From: Anaerobranca gottschalkii DSM 13577
GTDB taxonomy: Bacteria > Bacillota > Proteinivoracia > Proteinivoracales > Proteinivoracaceae
NCBI RefSeq assembly: GCF_900111575.1
Contig: NZ_FOIF01000001.1
Span: 61,417 to 125,416, forward strand
Direction of reading: 5' to 3'
DNA: 64,000 bases
Within the stretch, counting starts at the first letter, position 1. Every line of letters begins with the position of its first letter. Positions 11,133 through 44,037 of the stretch are shown one piece after another. A program made the translations under genes and the position numbers. The notes below the pieces were generated by a model that saw only the letters and a list, made by a program, of their open reading frames with translations, was not told the origin of the DNA and ran no database searches.

Positions 11133-11929
11133 CTTAATTCCTTAGCCTTTTCTACAATTACTTCAATTTTTTCAGAATCAATTTTTGAGTGATTATCTAA
11201 TTTTGCTAATAATAAATATTCTATATTACCCTCAGGACCAGTAATTGGGGAAAAATTTAAGTCTAATGTTCCAATCCCCAATTCAGAGCAAAAATCTATA
11301 ATATTTCTAATTACTTCCTTATGGACTTCAAAATCCCTAACTACACCTTTTTTCCCTACCTTTTCCCTACCAGCTTCAAATTGGGGCTTAATTAAAGCTA
11401 TAATTGTCCCACCTGGTACTAAAACTTCCTTTACTTTTGGTAGTAGTAACTTTAGGGAAATAAAGCTAGCATCAATAACTGCCATTTCAGGCTGAGGATC
11501 GAACATTCCCTTCTCTACATTTCTAAAATTAGTTCGCTCCATATTAATGACTTTAGGGTTACTTCTTAAACTCCAAGCCAATTGACCATAACCGACGTCT
11601 ACTGCAAAAACTAATTTAGCTCCATTTTGTAAAGCACAATCGGTGAACCCACCTGTAGATGCACCTACATCTACCACCACTTTATCGGTAAAATCTATTG
11701 AGAAACATTCCACAGCCTTTTGAAGTTTCAATCCCCCACGGCTAACAAAGGGACTATCCTTACCTTTAACTTGGATAGGAATATCTCTATCTACAAAAGT
11801 CCCTGCCTTATCTAATTTTTGCCCATCACTATAAACTAAACCTGCCATAATAGAACGTTTAGCCTTTTCTCTACTTTCAAATAAACCCCTTTCAACCAAT
11901 AACTGGTCTAATCGCACTTTCTTTTCCAT
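11123..11929 (-). CDS. tlyA: TlyA family rRNA (cytidine-2'-O)-methyltransferase
   Basis: A 268-residue protein with an N-terminal S4 RNA-binding domain (about 5-65, VRLDQLLVERGL) and an FtsJ-like methyltransferase domain whose SAM site is VVDVGASTGGFTDCAL (about 84-99), with DASFISLKLLLP further on. The family 2'-O-methylates ribosomal RNA. ATG start with AGGAG six bases upstream, inside the last 38 bases of dxs. The final Leu-Trp-stop is encoded by the end of repeat copy B, so the natural C-terminus may have been trimmed or changed. Part of the classical OLE locus. Confidence 0.94.
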   Translation of the reverse strand: MEKKVRLDQLLVERGLFESREKAKRSIMAGLVYSDGQKLDKAGTFVDRDIPIQVKGKDSPFVSRGGLKLQKAVECFSIDFTDKVVVDVGASTGGFTDCALQNGAKLVFAVDVGYGQLAWSLRSNPKVINMERTNFRNVEKGMFDPQPEMAVIDASFISLKLLLPKVKEVLVPGGTIIALIKPQFEAGREKVGKKGVVRDFEVHKEVIRNIIDFCSELGIGTLDLNFSPITGPEGNIEYLLLAKLDNHSKIDSEKIEVIVEKAKELRLW

Positions 11930-13808
11930 AACCTACTCCTGAAATCTCTCCAATAATTTTTTTGTATATTCCTTCAGCTGAAATACCATATTTGTCTAAA
12001 ATTTTTTTCCTTGAACCATGTTCAATAAATTTATCAGGTAATGAAATACTCAATAATTTACAGTGGACATTTTCTTCAATAAATATTGAAGAAACTAGTT
12101 CCCCAAAACCTCCTATTTTTGTATGATCTTCAATTACTAAAGCTAACCTATGCTTTTGGGCTAAGGTGATTAACGTATCTTTATCAAAGGGTTTTATGTA
12201 GGGGAAATGAACTACAGTAGCATTAATTCCCACATCCAATAACTTTTTAGCCCCTTCTAAAGAAATATTACTAGTAACTCCTGTGGAAATAAGGAGAACC
12301 TCTTCTCCCTGTTTCAACACTTGCCCTTTATTTTCCAAAATCCTAGGATTATTATAATCAATAAATTCCTCAACTACTATATCCTTTGGATATCTAATGG
12401 CTACAGGTGTTTTTAATGTTAAAGCTGTATGAATACCATCCCTTAGCTCTTGACCATCTTTAGGTGAAATAATGGTGATATTAGGAATATGCCTTAAAAA
12501 AGCGATATCATAAATCCCTTGGTGAGTTTCACCATCTGCTCCAACAATCCCAGCCCTATCAATGGCAAAAATTACTGGGAGGTTGGGCAGACAAACATCG
12601 TGGAGTACTTGATCATAACCCCTCTGCAAAAAGGTGGAATAGACTGCAAAAATAGGTTTCATTCCTTCCTTTGCTAAACCTGCTGCCATAGTAACTGCAT
12701 TTTGTTCAGCAATCCCAACATCAAAAAATCTCTGGGGATACTTTTGGGCAAACTCATCAAGGCCAGTTCCCGGAGCCATTGCTGCAGTTATAGCTATTAT
12801 GTTAGGATTTTTTTCTGCTTGTTCTATAATACTCTTTGAAAAAACTTCAGTAAAACTGATGCCTTTACCCTCTATAACCCTACCTGTTTCTTTTTCAAAT
12901 TGTCCAACTCCATGAAAAAGTTGGGGGTTATCTTCTGCCGGCCAATAACCTTTTCCTTTTTTTGTTATAACATGAACTAGTACCGGCCCATCGACTTTCT
13001 TAGCCTTCCTTAATGTATCTTCAACTACATTAAAATTGTGGCCATCGATAGGACCTAAATACTTAAATCCTAATTCTTCAAATAGGATACCTGCCACCAA
13101 AAGATATTTTAAACTATCTTTAACCCTCTCTAAAGATTTATATAATTTTCCTCCAATAGCAGGCACTTTATTTAATATGTACTGGATATCCTTTTTAATC
13201 TTCGTATACTTTGAATCTGTTCTAAGGCGATTTAAATAAGAACTTAAACCACCTACATTGTTCGTTATTGACATTTCATTATCATTTAAAACTACTATAA
13301 GTTTACAATCTTGTTTATGGCCTGCAAAATTAAGGGCTTCAAAGGCCATTCCTCCCGTCATAGCTCCATCACCAATAACGGCCACTACATTATAATTTTC
13401 TCCTTTAATTTCCCTGGCTAAAGCCATACCTAAGGCAGCAGAAATAGATGTAGAGCTGTGGCCTGTTTCAAAATGGTCATGGACACTCTCTTTGCATTTA
13501 GGGAAACCACTTAAACCACCATATTTTCTCAATGTGTGGAAATTATCTCGACGACCGGTTATAATTTTATGAACATAGGTTTGATGACCTACATCCCAAA
13601 CAATTTTATCTATAGGACTATTAAAAACCCTGTGTAAAGCTATGGTTAATTCCACTACCCCTAAATTAGGAGCTAAGTGTCCCCCTGTTTTTGAAACATT
13701 TTCTATCAAAAACTCCCGGATTTCCTCACAAAGCTTACTTATTTCTTCACCATTTAAAGTTTTTATATCATCAGGGCTGTTAATTTTACTGAGGATTGGA
13801 TAATTCAC
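11892..13808 (-). CDS. dxs: 1-deoxy-D-xylulose-5-phosphate synthase
   Basis: A 638-residue thiamin-diphosphate enzyme condensing pyruvate and glyceraldehyde-3-phosphate, the entry step of the MEP isoprenoid pathway. Seen: WDVGHQTYVHKIITGR (about 72-87), the ThDP motif beginning GDGAMTGG (about 146-153), and the transketolase pyrimidine domain with DRAGIVGADGETHQG (about 417-431). GTG start. It begins six bases after oapA and overlaps tlyA by 38 bases. Its last 20 residues are atypical, probably because of the overlap. With ispA in the same locus it ties the OLE region to isoprenoid synthesis. Confidence 0.97.
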   Translation of the reverse strand: MNYPILSKINSPDDIKTLNGEEISKLCEEIREFLIENVSKTGGHLAPNLGVVELTIALHRVFNSPIDKIVWDVGHQTYVHKIITGRRDNFHTLRKYGGLSGFPKCKESVHDHFETGHSSTSISAALGMALAREIKGENYNVVAVIGDGAMTGGMAFEALNFAGHKQDCKLIVVLNDNEMSITNNVGGLSSYLNRLRTDSKYTKIKKDIQYILNKVPAIGGKLYKSLERVKDSLKYLLVAGILFEELGFKYLGPIDGHNFNVVEDTLRKAKKVDGPVLVHVITKKGKGYWPAEDNPQLFHGVGQFEKETGRVIEGKGISFTEVFSKSIIEQAEKNPNIIAITAAMAPGTGLDEFAQKYPQRFFDVGIAEQNAVTMAAGLAKEGMKPIFAVYSTFLQRGYDQVLHDVCLPNLPVIFAIDRAGIVGADGETHQGIYDIAFLRHIPNITIISPKDGQELRDGIHTALTLKTPVAIRYPKDIVVEEFIDYNNPRILENKGQVLKQGEEVLLISTGVTSNISLEGAKKLLDVGINATVVHFPYIKPFDKDTLITLAQKHRLALVIEDHTKIGGFGELVSSIFIEENVHCKLLSISLPDKFIEHGSRKKILDKYGISAEGIYKKIIGEISGVGYGKESAIRPVIG

Positions 13809-13814
13809 AAAGAA

Positions 13815-14387
13815 TCACACCCTTTTTTTTCTTCTTTTACTTTTAGAATTTGTTAAATTTACCCGAAATATTTTTTCAATATAATAAATTATTTTACCAA
13901 CAAAAACTAAGATCTCTGTTGATTTCTTTATAGCCAAAGTTTTTCCTATACCTTTTCCTCCCACAGTTATTCCTGCTACTATGGAAGTTAAGATAACACT
14001 ATATAAAGATTCTCCTCCTTGGCCAAAGATCCTAAATATTATTGCTGCTGCAGCTCCACCACTAACTATCCCACTAATATCTCCTATGACATCATTGCAA
14101 AACACCGCCACCCGTTCAGCATTTCTTATGAAAAATAGAGCCTGTTTTGCCCCTATTATCTTTTTAGCCGCCTTTGCATTAATGGGGGCAGGTTCCGCTA
14201 CAGTAGCTGCAACTCCTATCATGTCAAATATTATACCCATAAAGACTATAGAAAACAACATAAAAAAAGCAGTAAATACACCTACTTTACTCAAAGTATT
14301 TTGAGAAAGGAGGGTAAATATTACTGCTAGTACAATTGTCCAAATTGTAATTCTTATTACCCACAAGTTATCATTCTTCAAGTCCAA
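13815..14387 (-). CDS. oapA: OLE RNA-associated membrane protein OapA
   Basis: A 190-residue protein with four predicted membrane helices (about 13-27, 34-58, 98-118, 128-145) and a very basic C-terminus ending KSKRRKKR. The segment around AKAAKKIIGAKQALFFIRNAERVA resembles the DUF21/CNNM-type region. OapA binds OLE RNA and holds it at the membrane; mutants in Bacillus halodurans are sensitive to ethanol, cold and magnesium (established for the family). Identification rests on topology plus its place directly after the OLE RNA and before dxs. The first TTG is only four bases from GAGG, so the second TTG two codons later is a possible start. Confidence 0.92.
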   Translation of the reverse strand: MDLKNDNLWVIRITIWTIVLAVIFTLLSQNTLSKVGVFTAFFMLFSIVFMGIIFDMIGVAATVAEPAPINAKAAKKIIGAKQALFFIRNAERVAVFCNDVIGDISGIVSGGAAAAIIFRIFGQGGESLYSVILTSIVAGITVGGKGIGKTLAIKKSTEILVFVGKIIYYIEKIFRVNLTNSKSKRRKKRV

Positions 14388-14407
14388 TACACCTCAAAAT
14401 TATATGT

Positions 14408-15016
14408 AACTAACGGTGGTAATATAGAAGGTAAATGTTGCGGCTTAGGTCTAGCAGGTTTTCCCAGAAAATTACCTGGTGTCGCCATCCAGGCGGTTTC
14501 CCTTTAAAATTTTCTCTGTTTTAAACAGGGCTAGATTGCCACTTAGTCCGCACTTTAATCCCTTCTATATTTCCTTACGGAACAGTCTAGGAGCTTTCCT
14601 CGACAAAGGTTGCTATATCCTAGCCTCTTTTGCACTAATGGTTTCAACCCCTGGTTTTCAAATTAGGCCCCTTTGAAAATCCAGTTTTTAAATAGTATCC
14701 ACCATTACCACTCAAGGCAGGCTACACTGTACACAGCCCTTGTTTTCGGGCAGAACCGCATACAGGTTTCTATCCTAAGCCATAATTTAGCACCCCATCT
14801 ACGTGATAAACTACAAACTTAGGTCTCCGCGGAGGCGGGGTCAACGCCCACATGCCATTGTGGATCGCCCCATCCCCCTTAACTCCCAGCACCAGCCCAC
14901 GACTGGGCGTCGTAAGCCAGCACCAGGAACTTCATCGATGTGCCCTTAACGGATTTTTAGGCCCGTCTTCAAATATAGCACCTTTGACTAGAATACTGCA
15001 CCACCGTTATTTGATA
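14408..15016 (-). ncRNA. ole: OLE RNA (ornate, large, extremophilic RNA)
   Basis: About 610 bases without a plausible gene, GC-richer than its surroundings and full of helices. The ends pair through AACGGTGGT (15008-15000) and ACCACCGTT (14420-14412). Length, the closing helix, and the exact gene order ispA, PAP2-like, RNA, oapA, dxs, tlyA match the OLE RNA locus. OLE RNA forms a membrane-associated ribonucleoprotein with OapA and affects stress and magnesium tolerance. The 5' end is set from the sigma-A promoter at 15023-15051; the 3' end is approximate because the transcript may read through into oapA. Confidence 0.92.
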
Positions 15017-15022
15017 AAATCT

Positions 15023-15051
15023 ATAATATCATTTTAAAAAATTTTTTTCAA
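15023..15051 (-). promoter_or_regulatory. Sigma-A promoter of OLE RNA
   Basis: On the minus strand TTGAAA (15046-15051), a 17-base spacer and TATTAT (15023-15028). The predicted start is about seven bases on, just before the closing helix of OLE RNA. This gives the RNA its own promoter in addition to read-through from ispA and the PAP2-like gene. Confidence 0.75.
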
Positions 15052-15059
15052 TAGCCAAT

Positions 15060-15494
15060 TTAAATCAAATATGGAACAATTATACCTAATAATGCTCCTG
15101 CTACTACTTCTATCGGCGTATGTCCTAATAATTCTTTTAGTTTCTCCTTCTCATCTATTATTTTATTCCCTTGCTGAAGCTCTGAGATAATTATATTGAG
15201 AATTTTAGCTTGTTTTCCAGCTGCCCTTCTTACTCCTGCGGCGTCATACATCACAACAAGTGCAAAAATAAAACTGATAGCCGTTAAAGGACTATCCCAA
15301 CCAAAATCTAAAGCCAATGTAGTGGTAAGTGCCATAACCAGGGCAGAATGGGAACTGGGCATCCCTCCTGCTCCAACAAAACGATAAGCATTAAACTCCC
15401 TTTTTAATAACAATTCTATGATAACCTTTAAAGTTTGTGCAATGGCCCATGCTATTACCGGTACAAAGAAATATCTGTTATCAAAAATCAACAA
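15060..15494 (-). CDS. Divergent PAP2-family membrane protein (YuiD-like)
   Basis: A 144-residue membrane protein of the divergent PAP2 (acid-phosphatase/vanadium-haloperoxidase-related) family. It retains the GAGGMPSSHSALV motif (about 42-54) that holds the catalytic Ser-His of PAP2 enzymes, then YDAAGVRRAAGKQA. About four hydrophobic helices. A role in isoprenyl-phosphate hydrolysis is suggested by the neighbouring ispA but is not proven for the family. The start is one of two tandem TTG codons preceded by AGGAGG. The OLE promoter begins within ten bases of its stop. Confidence 0.88.
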   Translation of the reverse strand: MLIFDNRYFFVPVIAWAIAQTLKVIIELLLKREFNAYRFVGAGGMPSSHSALVMALTTTLALDFGWDSPLTAISFIFALVVMYDAAGVRRAAGKQAKILNIIISELQQGNKIIDEKEKLKELLGHTPIEVVAGALLGIIVPYLI

Positions 15495-15511: not shown

Positions 15512-16393
15512 TTACCCTTTTCTATTCAAAAGATATGTTAATATTTCCTTTAAATATGGAATTTGTAAATTCCCTTCTTTCAATGCATTAACACCTAACT
15601 GGACATAATATTGGGCTAACTTTTGAGCTTTTTCTAAACCCATAATACTTACATAAGTTGCTTTTTGAAGTTTCTCATCACTTCCAGTTAGTTTACCCAT
15701 ATCTTGAAAGTTACCACAAACATCTAATATATCATCGGTTATCTGAAATGTCAAGCCTAGAGCTTCACCGTATTTTATTAAAGCTTTTTTTTCACAATCT
15801 TTTAAATCACAAACTTCAGCTGCCATTTTAAGGGGAGCTAATAGTAGTTTTCCTGTTTTATTATTATGGATTTCCTTTAATTCTTCCTCAGTTAATATTT
15901 TACCCTCATTTTCAAGATCTAAAACTTGCCCTTTGATCATACCACAAGGGCCAGAAGCTTCGCTTAAAATACTGATAACTTTAACCTTTTTCTCTGCTGA
16001 TAAACCTTTAACTTCAGATATAATATTAAAGGCTTGGGTTAACAAAGCATCACCAGCTAAAATAGCCATTCCTTCACCAAAAACTTTATGGTTCGTTAAT
16101 TTTCCCCGACGATAATCATCATTATCCATAGCCGGTAAATCATCATGGATTAATGAATAAGTATGAATATATTCAATACTTAATGCTAATGGCAGGGAAA
16201 TTTCTCGGGAAATTTTATAATGGTCACAAATCAAGAGAAGTAAAAGGGGACGTATTCTTTTTCCCCCTGCCTTTAAGCTATATTCCATAGACTTTGCTAA
16301 ATTTTCCGGTACATCTTGAGGAATAAATTGGCACAGATGATTATCTATAAAGTCTTTATAGTCCTTCAAAACTTCTTTTAATTCCACAGACAT
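15512..16393 (-). CDS. ispA: Farnesyl/geranylgeranyl diphosphate synthase
   Basis: A 293-residue short-chain trans-prenyltransferase that condenses IPP with allylic diphosphates. The first Asp-rich motif DDLPAMDND is at 84-92, preceded by SLIH, and the second DDILD at 220-224. The substrate-binding GGKRIRP is at 43-49. The spacing in the first motif is that of bacterial FPP synthases. ATG start with GGAG just upstream, five bases after xseB. It supplies polyprenyl precursors for undecaprenyl-phosphate and works with Dxs of the same locus. Confidence 0.96.
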   Translation of the reverse strand: MSVELKEVLKDYKDFIDNHLCQFIPQDVPENLAKSMEYSLKAGGKRIRPLLLLLICDHYKISREISLPLALSIEYIHTYSLIHDDLPAMDNDDYRRGKLTNHKVFGEGMAILAGDALLTQAFNIISEVKGLSAEKKVKVISILSEASGPCGMIKGQVLDLENEGKILTEEELKEIHNNKTGKLLLAPLKMAAEVCDLKDCEKKALIKYGEALGLTFQITDDILDVCGNFQDMGKLTGSDEKLQKATYVSIMGLEKAQKLAQYYVQLGVNALKEGNLQIPYLKEILTYLLNRKG

Positions 16394-39823: not shown

Positions 39824-39985
39824 TTACCTGAGAGATTTAGTTCCCCTTTGGTGCACCGATGGTGCTCTCCAGAGTTGTGTCCCTTTTAGGTACTTTTGCC
39901 TGAAAGTTTCGTTGCTTATAGCAAATTATTCTAAGCAACTTGCTTCTTCGGCGCCTTTACAGGTCTCTCCCTAAAAGTTCATTCA
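39812..39985 (-). ncRNA. Tandem glycine riboswitch
   Basis: On the minus strand aptamer 1 opens with GGGAGAGACCTG, continues GGCGCCGAAG and closes with TTTCAGGCAAAAG; aptamer 2 opens with ACTCTGGAGAGCACC, carries CACCAAAGGGG and closes with CTCTCAGGTAAAAAGGACAGAG. These are the conserved blocks of two glycine aptamers joined by a short linker. It lies 100 bases before gcvT and controls the glycine-cleavage genes. The layout with a competing hairpin suggests that glycine turns expression on. The remaining space of the 39714-40098 gap is AT-rich with no clear promoter. Confidence 0.95.
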
Positions 39986-42576: not shown

Positions 42577-42760
42577 CGTTACAGAAAACTTATAAAACTT
42601 TACAAAGTTTTTATCAAACCTTATAAAAGTTTATGTTTCCTTCCTTGTTCATCGTGTCCAGTTTCGAAAAATTCTACTCCTGTTTGGTTTAACACTCCGA
42701 AGGCTTAAATTCCCGACTAACGTATCGGTACATATCAATAGTTGCTTTAAGTGCTATGCT
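42577..42760 (-). ncRNA. Candidate omega (reRNA) scaffold and right end of the TnpB element
   Basis: Downstream of the tnpB stop the minus strand carries CCGA/TCGG around TACGTTAG, the GTCGGGAATTTAAGCC stretch common to right ends of IS605/IS1341-type elements, and near the end the perfect palindrome AAAACTTTGTAAAGTTTT-like hairpin at 42593-42611. In characterised elements this region is the scaffold of the TnpB guide RNA, with the guide read from sequence just outside the element (here 42576 downward). Boundaries are approximate and expression is not shown. Confidence 0.5.
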
Positions 42761-43938
42761 ATTGATTTACCGTAATTTTTTAAATTTATACTTGCATTTA
42801 AATCCCTATCTATTTTATAACCACAAACGTTACAGATAAAAGTTCTTTCTGATAGAGAAAGTTTGTCTTTTATACTTCCACAGCTGCTACAAATTTTAGA
42901 TGAAGGATAGAATTTTTCTGCAAGGATAAATTTAATACCGTTACATTGGCATTTATATTCCATCTGTCTTCTAAATTCACGGAATGTTTGTTCTTGGATT
43001 GCTTTAGATAGCTTTTTGTTTTTTAACATTCCCTTTGTATTTAGGTTTTCCATAACTACATATTCTGGTTTGGTTTTCACCAATGATGTAGTTATTTGAT
43101 GGAGATAGTCTTTCCTTATATTTTTTAGCCTTCTTCGTGTTTTTAGAACAAGGTGTTCTAACTTTTTAATGTTGTTAGTTTTTCTGTAACGGTATTCACC
43201 TCCTTCTGTTTGTATTTTGTTTAATTCATATTTTTTAGATAATTTTCGTTGTAATCGTTTAAGTCTTTTCTCTAACTTCTTAACTTTCTTTGATTTATTT
43301 ATGTTTTTGTACTTTTGTCCTGTACTTATTGTAGCTAATTCTTTTACTCCTAAATCTATTCCTATACCCTCTGTATATTCTTTATTCTTATATTCTACTT
43401 CTTCTACTCCTATTGTTAAGTACCAGTTAAGTCCATCAAATGTTACCCTTGGGTTGTAGTATTTAATATTATCACCTACAGGTATTCTTCCTTTTTCAGC
43501 AAGTTTAACCCAATTTAGTTTTTGCTTATTGGGCTTTTTACTGTTAGTTAATTTTTCTAATTTTACATGGGTTGGGGTTATTTTAATTTTTTCTGTATCT
43601 ACATAAAAACTAGGTTTACTTTTCTTTTTTGACTTAAACTTAGGAAAGTCTGCTCTGCCTTCAAAGAAGTTTTTGTATGCAATACATACATCTTTTATTG
43701 CTTGTTTGGTTATATTGTTTGAATAGTCATTAAGCCATGAGTATTCTTTTGTCTTTTTTAGCTCAGTTAATATTTTTCTAAGTTCTCTGTCATTTAAAAA
43801 TTTGCCACCGTTATTATAATTCTCTTGTTCTGTAGCTAAAGCCCAATTATATGCCCATCTTGCAACCCCTGCACATTCTTTTAATTTAGTTTTTTGTTTT
43901 TTGTTAGGTAGAAGCATTACTTTATAGGTTTTAATCAT
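42754..43938 (-). CDS. tnpB: TnpB RNA-guided endonuclease of IS200/IS605-type element
   Basis: A 394-residue OrfB/TnpB protein, ancestor type of Cas12. All parts appear intact: N-terminal helix-turn-helix and WED-like region (MIKTYKVMLLPN, WAYNWAL), RuvC Asp195 in GIDLGVKEL, Glu297 in VVMENLN, zinc finger C350/C353 and C369/C372, and Asp379 in DRDLNAS. The ATG at 43938 fits the family start; an upstream GTG would be too close to the GGGGG site. It would cut DNA matching its right-end guide RNA next to a target-adjacent motif and so favour retention of the element. Confidence 0.95.
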   Translation of the reverse strand: MIKTYKVMLLPNKKQKTKLKECAGVARWAYNWALATEQENYNNGGKFLNDRELRKILTELKKTKEYSWLNDYSNNITKQAIKDVCIAYKNFFEGRADFPKFKSKKKSKPSFYVDTEKIKITPTHVKLEKLTNSKKPNKQKLNWVKLAEKGRIPVGDNIKYYNPRVTFDGLNWYLTIGVEEVEYKNKEYTEGIGIDLGVKELATISTGQKYKNINKSKKVKKLEKRLKRLQRKLSKKYELNKIQTEGGEYRYRKTNNIKKLEHLVLKTRRRLKNIRKDYLHQITTSLVKTKPEYVVMENLNTKGMLKNKKLSKAIQEQTFREFRRQMEYKCQCNGIKFILAEKFYPSSKICSSCGSIKDKLSLSERTFICNVCGYKIDRDLNASINLKNYGKSIA

Positions 43939-44037
43939 TAGATTTATCACCCCCTGACAATTTCCTCATTTATAAAATTATTATAGATATTTAGATTGTT
44001 TTATAAATATAGTTTAACTGTTAAAAGCCCCTAATAA

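Follow-up and report, generated by a model that had tools for sequence, protein, structure and literature searches.

OLE RNA, which forms an abundant, membrane-associated RNA-protein particle, is counted among the largest and best conserved of the bacterial RNAs that have no known function. The closest described system is that of Halalkalibacterium halodurans, in which, according to the passages of a 2022 paper that treat the gene (PMC9723947, citing Ko and Altman 2007), ole lies within a large operon yet has a promoter of its own. The 3' end of that RNA is described, in the relevant portion of a second source, as processed, with RNase PH put forward only as a speculation (PMC11332333). The size of the RNA is quoted as 610 nt in one paper (PMC5643018) and as about 630 nt in another (PMC9723947), in the parts of each that give a length, and excerpts of a further study (PMC12054373) describe a conserved RNA that has a particle and phenotypes of its own.

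Two ribonucleases of the MazF type supply the other precedents. In the part of a mapping study that concerns EndoA of B. subtilis (PMC11780869), the enzyme is reported to cut U/ACAU in vivo only if an A follows, an activity that is lost upon deletion of ndoA; the same text reports that U/ACAUA cutting is absent in the wild-type organism. The MazF of Symbiobacterium thermophilum (MazF-sth), as described in excerpts of PMC10893535, prefers the same hexamer, UACAUA, cuts UACUUA more weakly and AACAUA only slightly; the targets estimated for it are coding sequences, and the available passages of that paper include no structured RNA.

The window, by which is meant the whole 64,000-nt stretch of Anaerobranca gottschalkii DSM 13577 DNA that was analysed, carries on its minus strand a match to the Rfam OLE family (RF01071) at 15020-14400, which spans positions 1-616 of the 616 in the model and scores 518 bits against a gathering score of 50 (cmscan over the window, E 4.7e-149); it is the single copy in the whole genome. 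An earlier note on this DNA had claimed a complete OLE RNA in the classical gene order, and the full-length Rfam match bears out the former while the neighbours, with ispA upstream and oapA and dxs downstream, bear out the latter. The order along the minus strand is xseA, xseB (named from its sequence alone), ispA, DUF212, OLE, oapA, dxs and tlyA, and the locus is a genuine, unexceptional representative of the OLE family. Its features, all on the minus strand, are as follows.

15512-16393, minus: ispA, polyprenyl synthetase (Pfam PF00348, 199 bits)
15060-15494, minus: DUF212 / divergent PAP2 gene, the upstream neighbour of OLE (Pfam PF02681, 173 bits)
15046-15051, minus: -35 element TTGAAA, read from the sequence, its position conserved in relatives of the same class
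15023-15031, minus: extended -10 element TG-A-TATTAT (TG at 15031-15030, TATTAT at 15028-15023), of a kind found family-wide
14400-15020, minus: OLE RNA (Rfam RF01071), with a predicted primary 5' end at about 15016-15015, placed about 7 nt beyond the -10 element, and a predicted cut 3' end at 14408
15000-15009, minus: 5' strand of the closing helix, UAACGGUGGU, from the sequence and from covariation of the outward pairs in 127 loci
14411-14420, minus: 3' strand of the closing helix, ACCACCGUUA, from the sequence and covariation
14403-14408, minus: UACAUA, predicted EndoA/MazF site, with a cut expected between 14408 and 14407 (specificity as given in passages of PMC11780869 and PMC10893535)
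14390-14395, minus: GAGGTG, likely Shine-Dalgarno sequence of oapA, as read from the sequence
13815-14387, minus: oapA, open reading frame starting from TTG 14387 or, with greater probability, from TTG 14381
11892-13808, minus: dxs, 3' of oapA (Pfam DXP_synthase_N)

The start of oapA at 14381 is favoured because of its spacing from GAGGTG. No Pfam or NCBIfam model matched the oapA product, which is 48% identical to the product of the reading frame adjoining OLE in the H. halodurans locus; elsewhere the genome encodes two L7Ae-type (OapC-like) proteins and one bS21, identified by Pfam, as candidate OLE partner proteins. The window and the H. halodurans OLE locus thus have in common the full-length RF01071 match, an adjoining oapA, an upstream ispA, a predicted extended -10 promoter of their own and a UACAUA behind the closing helix. 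They differ in that DUF212 lies between ispA and OLE here, in the -35 (TTGAAA here, TTGAGC in H. halodurans), in the -10 (TATTAT here, TATAAT there) and in the distance from ACCAC to UACAUA, which is 7 nt here and 5 in H. halodurans.

Two further structured RNAs were seen in the window. A RAGATH-18 RNA (42641-42703, minus, 71.7 bits) begins some 50 nt after the stop codon of a tnpB gene of the IS605 type (42754-43950, minus; Cas12f1-like_TNB), in the position expected of a guide RNA for TnpB, and a glycine riboswitch (39878-39982, minus, 66.5 bits) precedes gcvT, gcvH and two gcvP genes, the names of which were read from the sequences of their reading frames.

The earlier note had also placed a TTGAAA-N17-TATTAT promoter inside the operon just 5' of OLE. 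Such a sequence is present at 15051-15023; its hexamers stand 17 nt apart, within the 16-18 nt allowed for a sigma-A promoter, and a TG precedes the -10, as in the extended -10 class. It lies within the 40 nt that follow the stop codon of the upstream gene, which ends at 15060, and its consensus suggests sigma-A as the sigma factor. Because promoter-like sites are common in AT-rich DNA (the 10 kb around OLE hold 53, against 33.6 in shuffled sequence), a 10/12 match to consensus would by itself be weak evidence, and it is the position of the elements and their conservation across relatives that raise the window promoter above chance.

That conservation was measured in OLE loci drawn from the window's phylum, where 217 of 299 sampled genomes have OLE, and from a set of named genomes; the phylum loci consist of the best-listed matches together with genomes weak or lacking in MazF, and are a subset of the 217. 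Among 192 OLE sequences, 185 could be anchored on a conserved 5' block (7 could not), 179 of these were distinct after removal of 6 duplicates, and 174 retained at least 100 nt of upstream sequence after 5 were dropped. A TGN joined to a -10 with at least 5 of 6 consensus bases was the best site in 151 of the 174, where shuffles gave 12.65 (sd 3.2), and in 140 of 163 loci once near-identical upstream regions had been removed. By comparison, an extended -10 was found at 26 of 325 intra-operon starts of other genes in the same loci and in 120 of 3102 random windows. It was found in 74/79 loci whose upstream gene, on the same strand, ends no more than 80 nt away, and in 50/64 in which the gap exceeds 80 nt. 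Within the window's class, a TG and a 17-nt spacer occur at about the same place in all nine loci examined, with 4 or 5 of 6 consensus matches in the -10; five of the nine fall outside the 140 because their -10 matches at only 4/6. In two loci of that class (L153 and L156) the TG-type promoter is present although the upstream gene points the opposite way, and in the family of Halalkalibacter wakoensis an extended -10 promoter was found in 19/19 unique loci.

Two side observations concern the form of these promoters. The H. halodurans family (L297-L316) has a -35 of TTGAGC or close variants together with a near-perfect extended -10, and in a minority of loci (L033, L077, L118, L147 and similar ones) the best -10 is found 35-60 nt ahead of the start of OLE, so that a longer 5' leader is predicted.

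On this comparative evidence the promoter belongs to the OLE gene, and the gene very probably is equipped with a start of its own. A promoter of this kind has already been reported and is not new in principle; a statement extending it to the whole OLE family was not found in the passages on OLE that were searched, the primary papers being outside the scope of the search. The family-wide promoter explains how OLE could be transcribed separately from the rest of the operon. The earlier note's prediction that OLE could be produced without transcription of ispA and the other genes upstream gains support because the extended -10 is conserved family-wide just 5' of OLE, including loci with an opposed upstream gene, and it agrees with the statement on H. 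halodurans in PMC9723947; as the note proposed, such a promoter may bear on the high abundance of the RNA.

The same element bears on the numbering in use. Locus L297 contains seven of nine primers from PMC12054373, and the OLE1-637 construct described in the portion of that paper examined measures exactly 637 nt there; the mutated positions published in it (G151, G152, C182 and C183) are likewise in register on L297. Nucleotide 1 of the H. halodurans numbering then coincides with the final T of TATAAT, the -10 element, which points to a 5' boundary that has been set within that element; a transcript from that promoter would start near nucleotide 8 or 9. In many loci the 5' flank of the Rfam model (RF01071 positions 1-16) overlaps the -10 region, and because of this overlap the model probably opens with promoter sequence that is not transcribed into the RNA.

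At the other end of the RNA, the earlier note had described a 9-bp closing helix. Its strands, AACGGUGGU and ACCACCGUU, are present as described; the length, however, comes to 10 pairs with the inclusion of U15009-A14411. From 163 loci, 32 without a 3' anchor and a further 4 of 131 without full GUGGU pairing were set aside, and in the remaining 127 the frequency of pairing at the four positions outside GUGGU/ACCAC is 93, 83, 70 and 61%, against 72, 48, 40 and 39% for shuffled partners, with the outward pairs interchanging among GC, AT, TA and CG. By the measure of this covariation the closing helix is real across the OLE family.

A role of the helix as an intrinsic terminator was considered and rejected: flanks rich in U (at least 6 T in 8) number 31/127 against 20.5 when shuffled, which is only slightly above chance, and the minus strand at the 3' end of the window's OLE holds no terminator-like site. 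It follows from the lack of such a site that oapA should be co-transcribed, and that OLE is not an isolated unit.

Directly behind the helix, and starting two nucleotides past it in the window, lies the hexamer UACAUA. As TACATA it occurs in 44 of the 127 40-nt OLE 3' flanks, where shuffles gave 4.0 and no hexamer exceeded 26. In a larger set of 222 unique 30-nt flanks, from which flanks with E >1e-3, shorter than 30 nt or duplicated were left out, it occurs in 74, whereas shuffles gave 5.47 and at most 13; the 3' flanks were placed with an ungapped 36-column profile, to which 9 loci gave no match. The base following UACAU is A in 74/79 flanks. The hexamer reaches a rate of 0.333 per 25 positions in the flanks, compared with 0.008 over the rest of the OLE strand and 0.012 for the remaining intergenic gaps, and it is rarer than expected inside the RNA itself (4 occurrences in 253 OLE bodies against 14.8 expected). 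Its enrichment extends to the H. wakoensis family, which includes the H. halodurans sequence, with 18/19 unique loci against 0.79 in shuffles; in this same family the hexamer is identical, its flanking bases vary, and its offset from the helix ranges from 5 to 28 nt. These patterns make it very likely that UACAUA is under selection. On the tree of OLE sequences it changes 31 times.

A target of an EndoA-type MazF is expected to be unpaired. A 65-nt stretch around the hexamer in the window, taken without the 5' strand of the helix, has a folding energy like that expected by chance (z 0.52), and in the minimum-free-energy fold two of the hexamer bases are paired; in L305 and L308, UACAUA could pair within a small AU hairpin. 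A part in ribosome binding for oapA was rejected as the main reading, the distance from UACAUA to the next reading frame varying (quartiles 15 to 41.5 nt in 39 loci) and the hexamer mostly staying near the helix. Where the exact site is missing (148 flanks), the one-mismatch forms seen most often are TACTTA (8 against 2.1) and AACATA (6 against 1.5); all one-mismatch forms together (37 against 27.2) stay inside the shuffle range. Flanks without UACAUA are more often U-rich (62/148 against 12/74 with it), so that other lineages may use another route. A separate observation is that Alkaliphilus and some other flanks (L041, L066, L039 and L074) carry no UACAUA and have a common CTGATAGT instead.

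The hexamer is the one that EndoA cuts and that MazF-sth prefers, and the two commonest one-mismatch forms are the secondary sites of the S. thermophilum enzyme. The genome encodes an EndoA-type MazF (L192, 1480-1848, minus; 122 aa; PemK_toxin, 130.9 bits), which adjoins an RHH antitoxin and alanine racemase and aligns over its full length with chains 4mdx and 4me7 of EndoA, the U^ACAUA-specific type II toxin RNase of B. subtilis. Across 164 OLE genomes with a readable flank, UACAUA was present in 47/131 with an EndoA-type MazF and 1/33 without (one-sided Fisher 4.4e-5), the type being defined by a best E <1e-35 to the MazF of the A. gottschalkii genome, a cut-off set after the table of E values and some of the flanks had been seen. 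Counted by family, the figures are 25/53 with and 1/19 without (p 6.6e-4); in the window's class they are 10/10 and 0/1, and for flanks of at least 55% AT they are 40/101 and 0/22. Every one of the 18 genomes searched in the H. halodurans family has an EndoA-type MazF. Among the named genomes, where the comparison covers 49 of the 96 loci with a usable flank, 23 have the site, of which 21 have an intact EndoA-type match, one (L102) has a frame-broken match of 81% and one has none; 24 of the 26 without the site also have an EndoA-type match.

Several observations limit this association. A tree-controlled test of site against EndoA was not significant and had no power, with 9 independent pairs in which the site follows EndoA in 2.3 and opposes it in 1.0. 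One genome with UACAUA (G138) has only a weak MazF match, and another, the 1.2-Mb genome behind locus L097 (G318), has none. The EndoA site is not the sole route to an OLE 3' end, because 148/222 flanks lack the exact hexamer, as do 84/131 genomes with EndoA. EndoA may also be mostly antitoxin-held, since U/ACAUA cutting is absent in wild-type B. subtilis in the mapping study, whereas normally growing cells contain OLE in abundance. In H. halodurans the predicted cut falls at U619^A620 and the OLE1-637 construct ends 18 nt past it, which, if nucleotide 637 is the mapped end, may speak against an EndoA cut as the source of the usual 3' end in that organism. With these points in the balance, EndoA is, in our estimation, somewhat more probably than not the reader of UACAUA. 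Our literature search, from which most subscription papers were out of scope, returned no report of EndoA acting on OLE RNA and none joining OLE RNA with EndoA or UACAU; the papers that join OLE RNA with MazF or toxin-antitoxin concern other subjects, to judge by their titles.

The explanation that we prefer assembles these elements as follows. Transcription of OLE would start near 15016-15015 from its own sigma-A-type extended -10 promoter, and read-through from the ispA/DUF212 side would probably add to it. Without a terminator at the OLE end, RNA polymerase would continue into oapA, and the folded OLE would be closed by its 10-bp helix with U^ACAUA carried in the linker directly behind. The EndoA-type MazF encoded beside alanine racemase would cut at that site, perhaps under stress, and thereby split ole from oapA. 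The cut would free an OLE of about 608 nt (15015 to 14408), or of 611-612 nt in H. halodurans, and the downstream oapA message would keep a short leader and the intact Shine-Dalgarno GAGGTG; the quoted sizes of 610 and about 630 nt cannot decide on such a cut. As the simplest account of all the parts, this combination of own promoter, oapA co-transcription and EndoA cut is one towards which we lean by a small degree. Its boldest element, that a large structured noncoding RNA owes its maturation to a type II toxin RNase of the EndoA/MazF kind, which frees OLE from the oapA message by cutting the conserved U^ACAUA, we would put at an even chance.

Some alternatives concern the promoter. That the promoter-like sequence arose by chance in AT-rich DNA, with OLE merely processed from a long operon transcript, draws on the frequency of such matches around OLE and on the H. 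halodurans numbering, in which nucleotide 1 lies upstream of any start that the promoter could give; it is nevertheless very improbable in light of the family-wide conservation of position, the persistence of the promoter where the upstream gene is opposed (L153 and L156) and the promoter published for H. halodurans, as the cited passages of PMC9723947 have it. A reading in which the promoter is genuine and chiefly serves oapA and dxs, with OLE as a very long processed leader of their message, agrees with the closeness of oapA behind OLE, the missing terminator-like site and the small excess of U-rich flanks. We consider it unlikely, given that OLE is a conserved RNA with the particle and phenotypes described above (excerpts of PMC12054373), although both readings may hold together.

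Other alternatives accept the promoter and concern the 3' end. The end might be made by RNase P, Y, III or PH or by exonuclease trimming to the helix, with UACAUA serving the OLE particle in binding or folding and resembling an EndoA site by coincidence. Cleavage of OLE by RNase P is cited in passages of PMC11332333 and PMC4919922, RNase PH has been suggested in the former, the exact site is absent from two thirds of the loci, and the tree-controlled test was not significant. Against this, a nuclease site would fit better than a docking motif with the exact six-base specificity down to the last A, the variants TACTTA and AACATA, the rarity of the hexamer inside OLE bodies, its fixed sequence at a movable offset and its association with EndoA-type MazF, and we hold the alternative to be possible and rather doubtful. 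We extend much the same tentative credit to a stress switch, in which OLE is normally trimmed and EndoA freed by stress cuts oapA from ole, shifting the ratio of RNA to protein; this overlaps the explanation that we prefer and differs from it in the timing of the cut. It would be consistent with the mapping study in which EndoA cutting goes unseen in wild-type B. subtilis (PMC11780869, in the part cited above) and with the rise of OLE in ethanol noted in an excerpt of PMC9723947.

For the OLE family, these comparisons indicate a promoter that belongs to the OLE gene regardless of what lies upstream, and they provide, in EndoA, a named candidate nuclease for the processing of the OLE 3' end. 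If the proposed cut is true, the assembly of the OLE stress particle would be tied to the state of a toxin-antitoxin pair, and a MazF would have a conserved physiological substrate.
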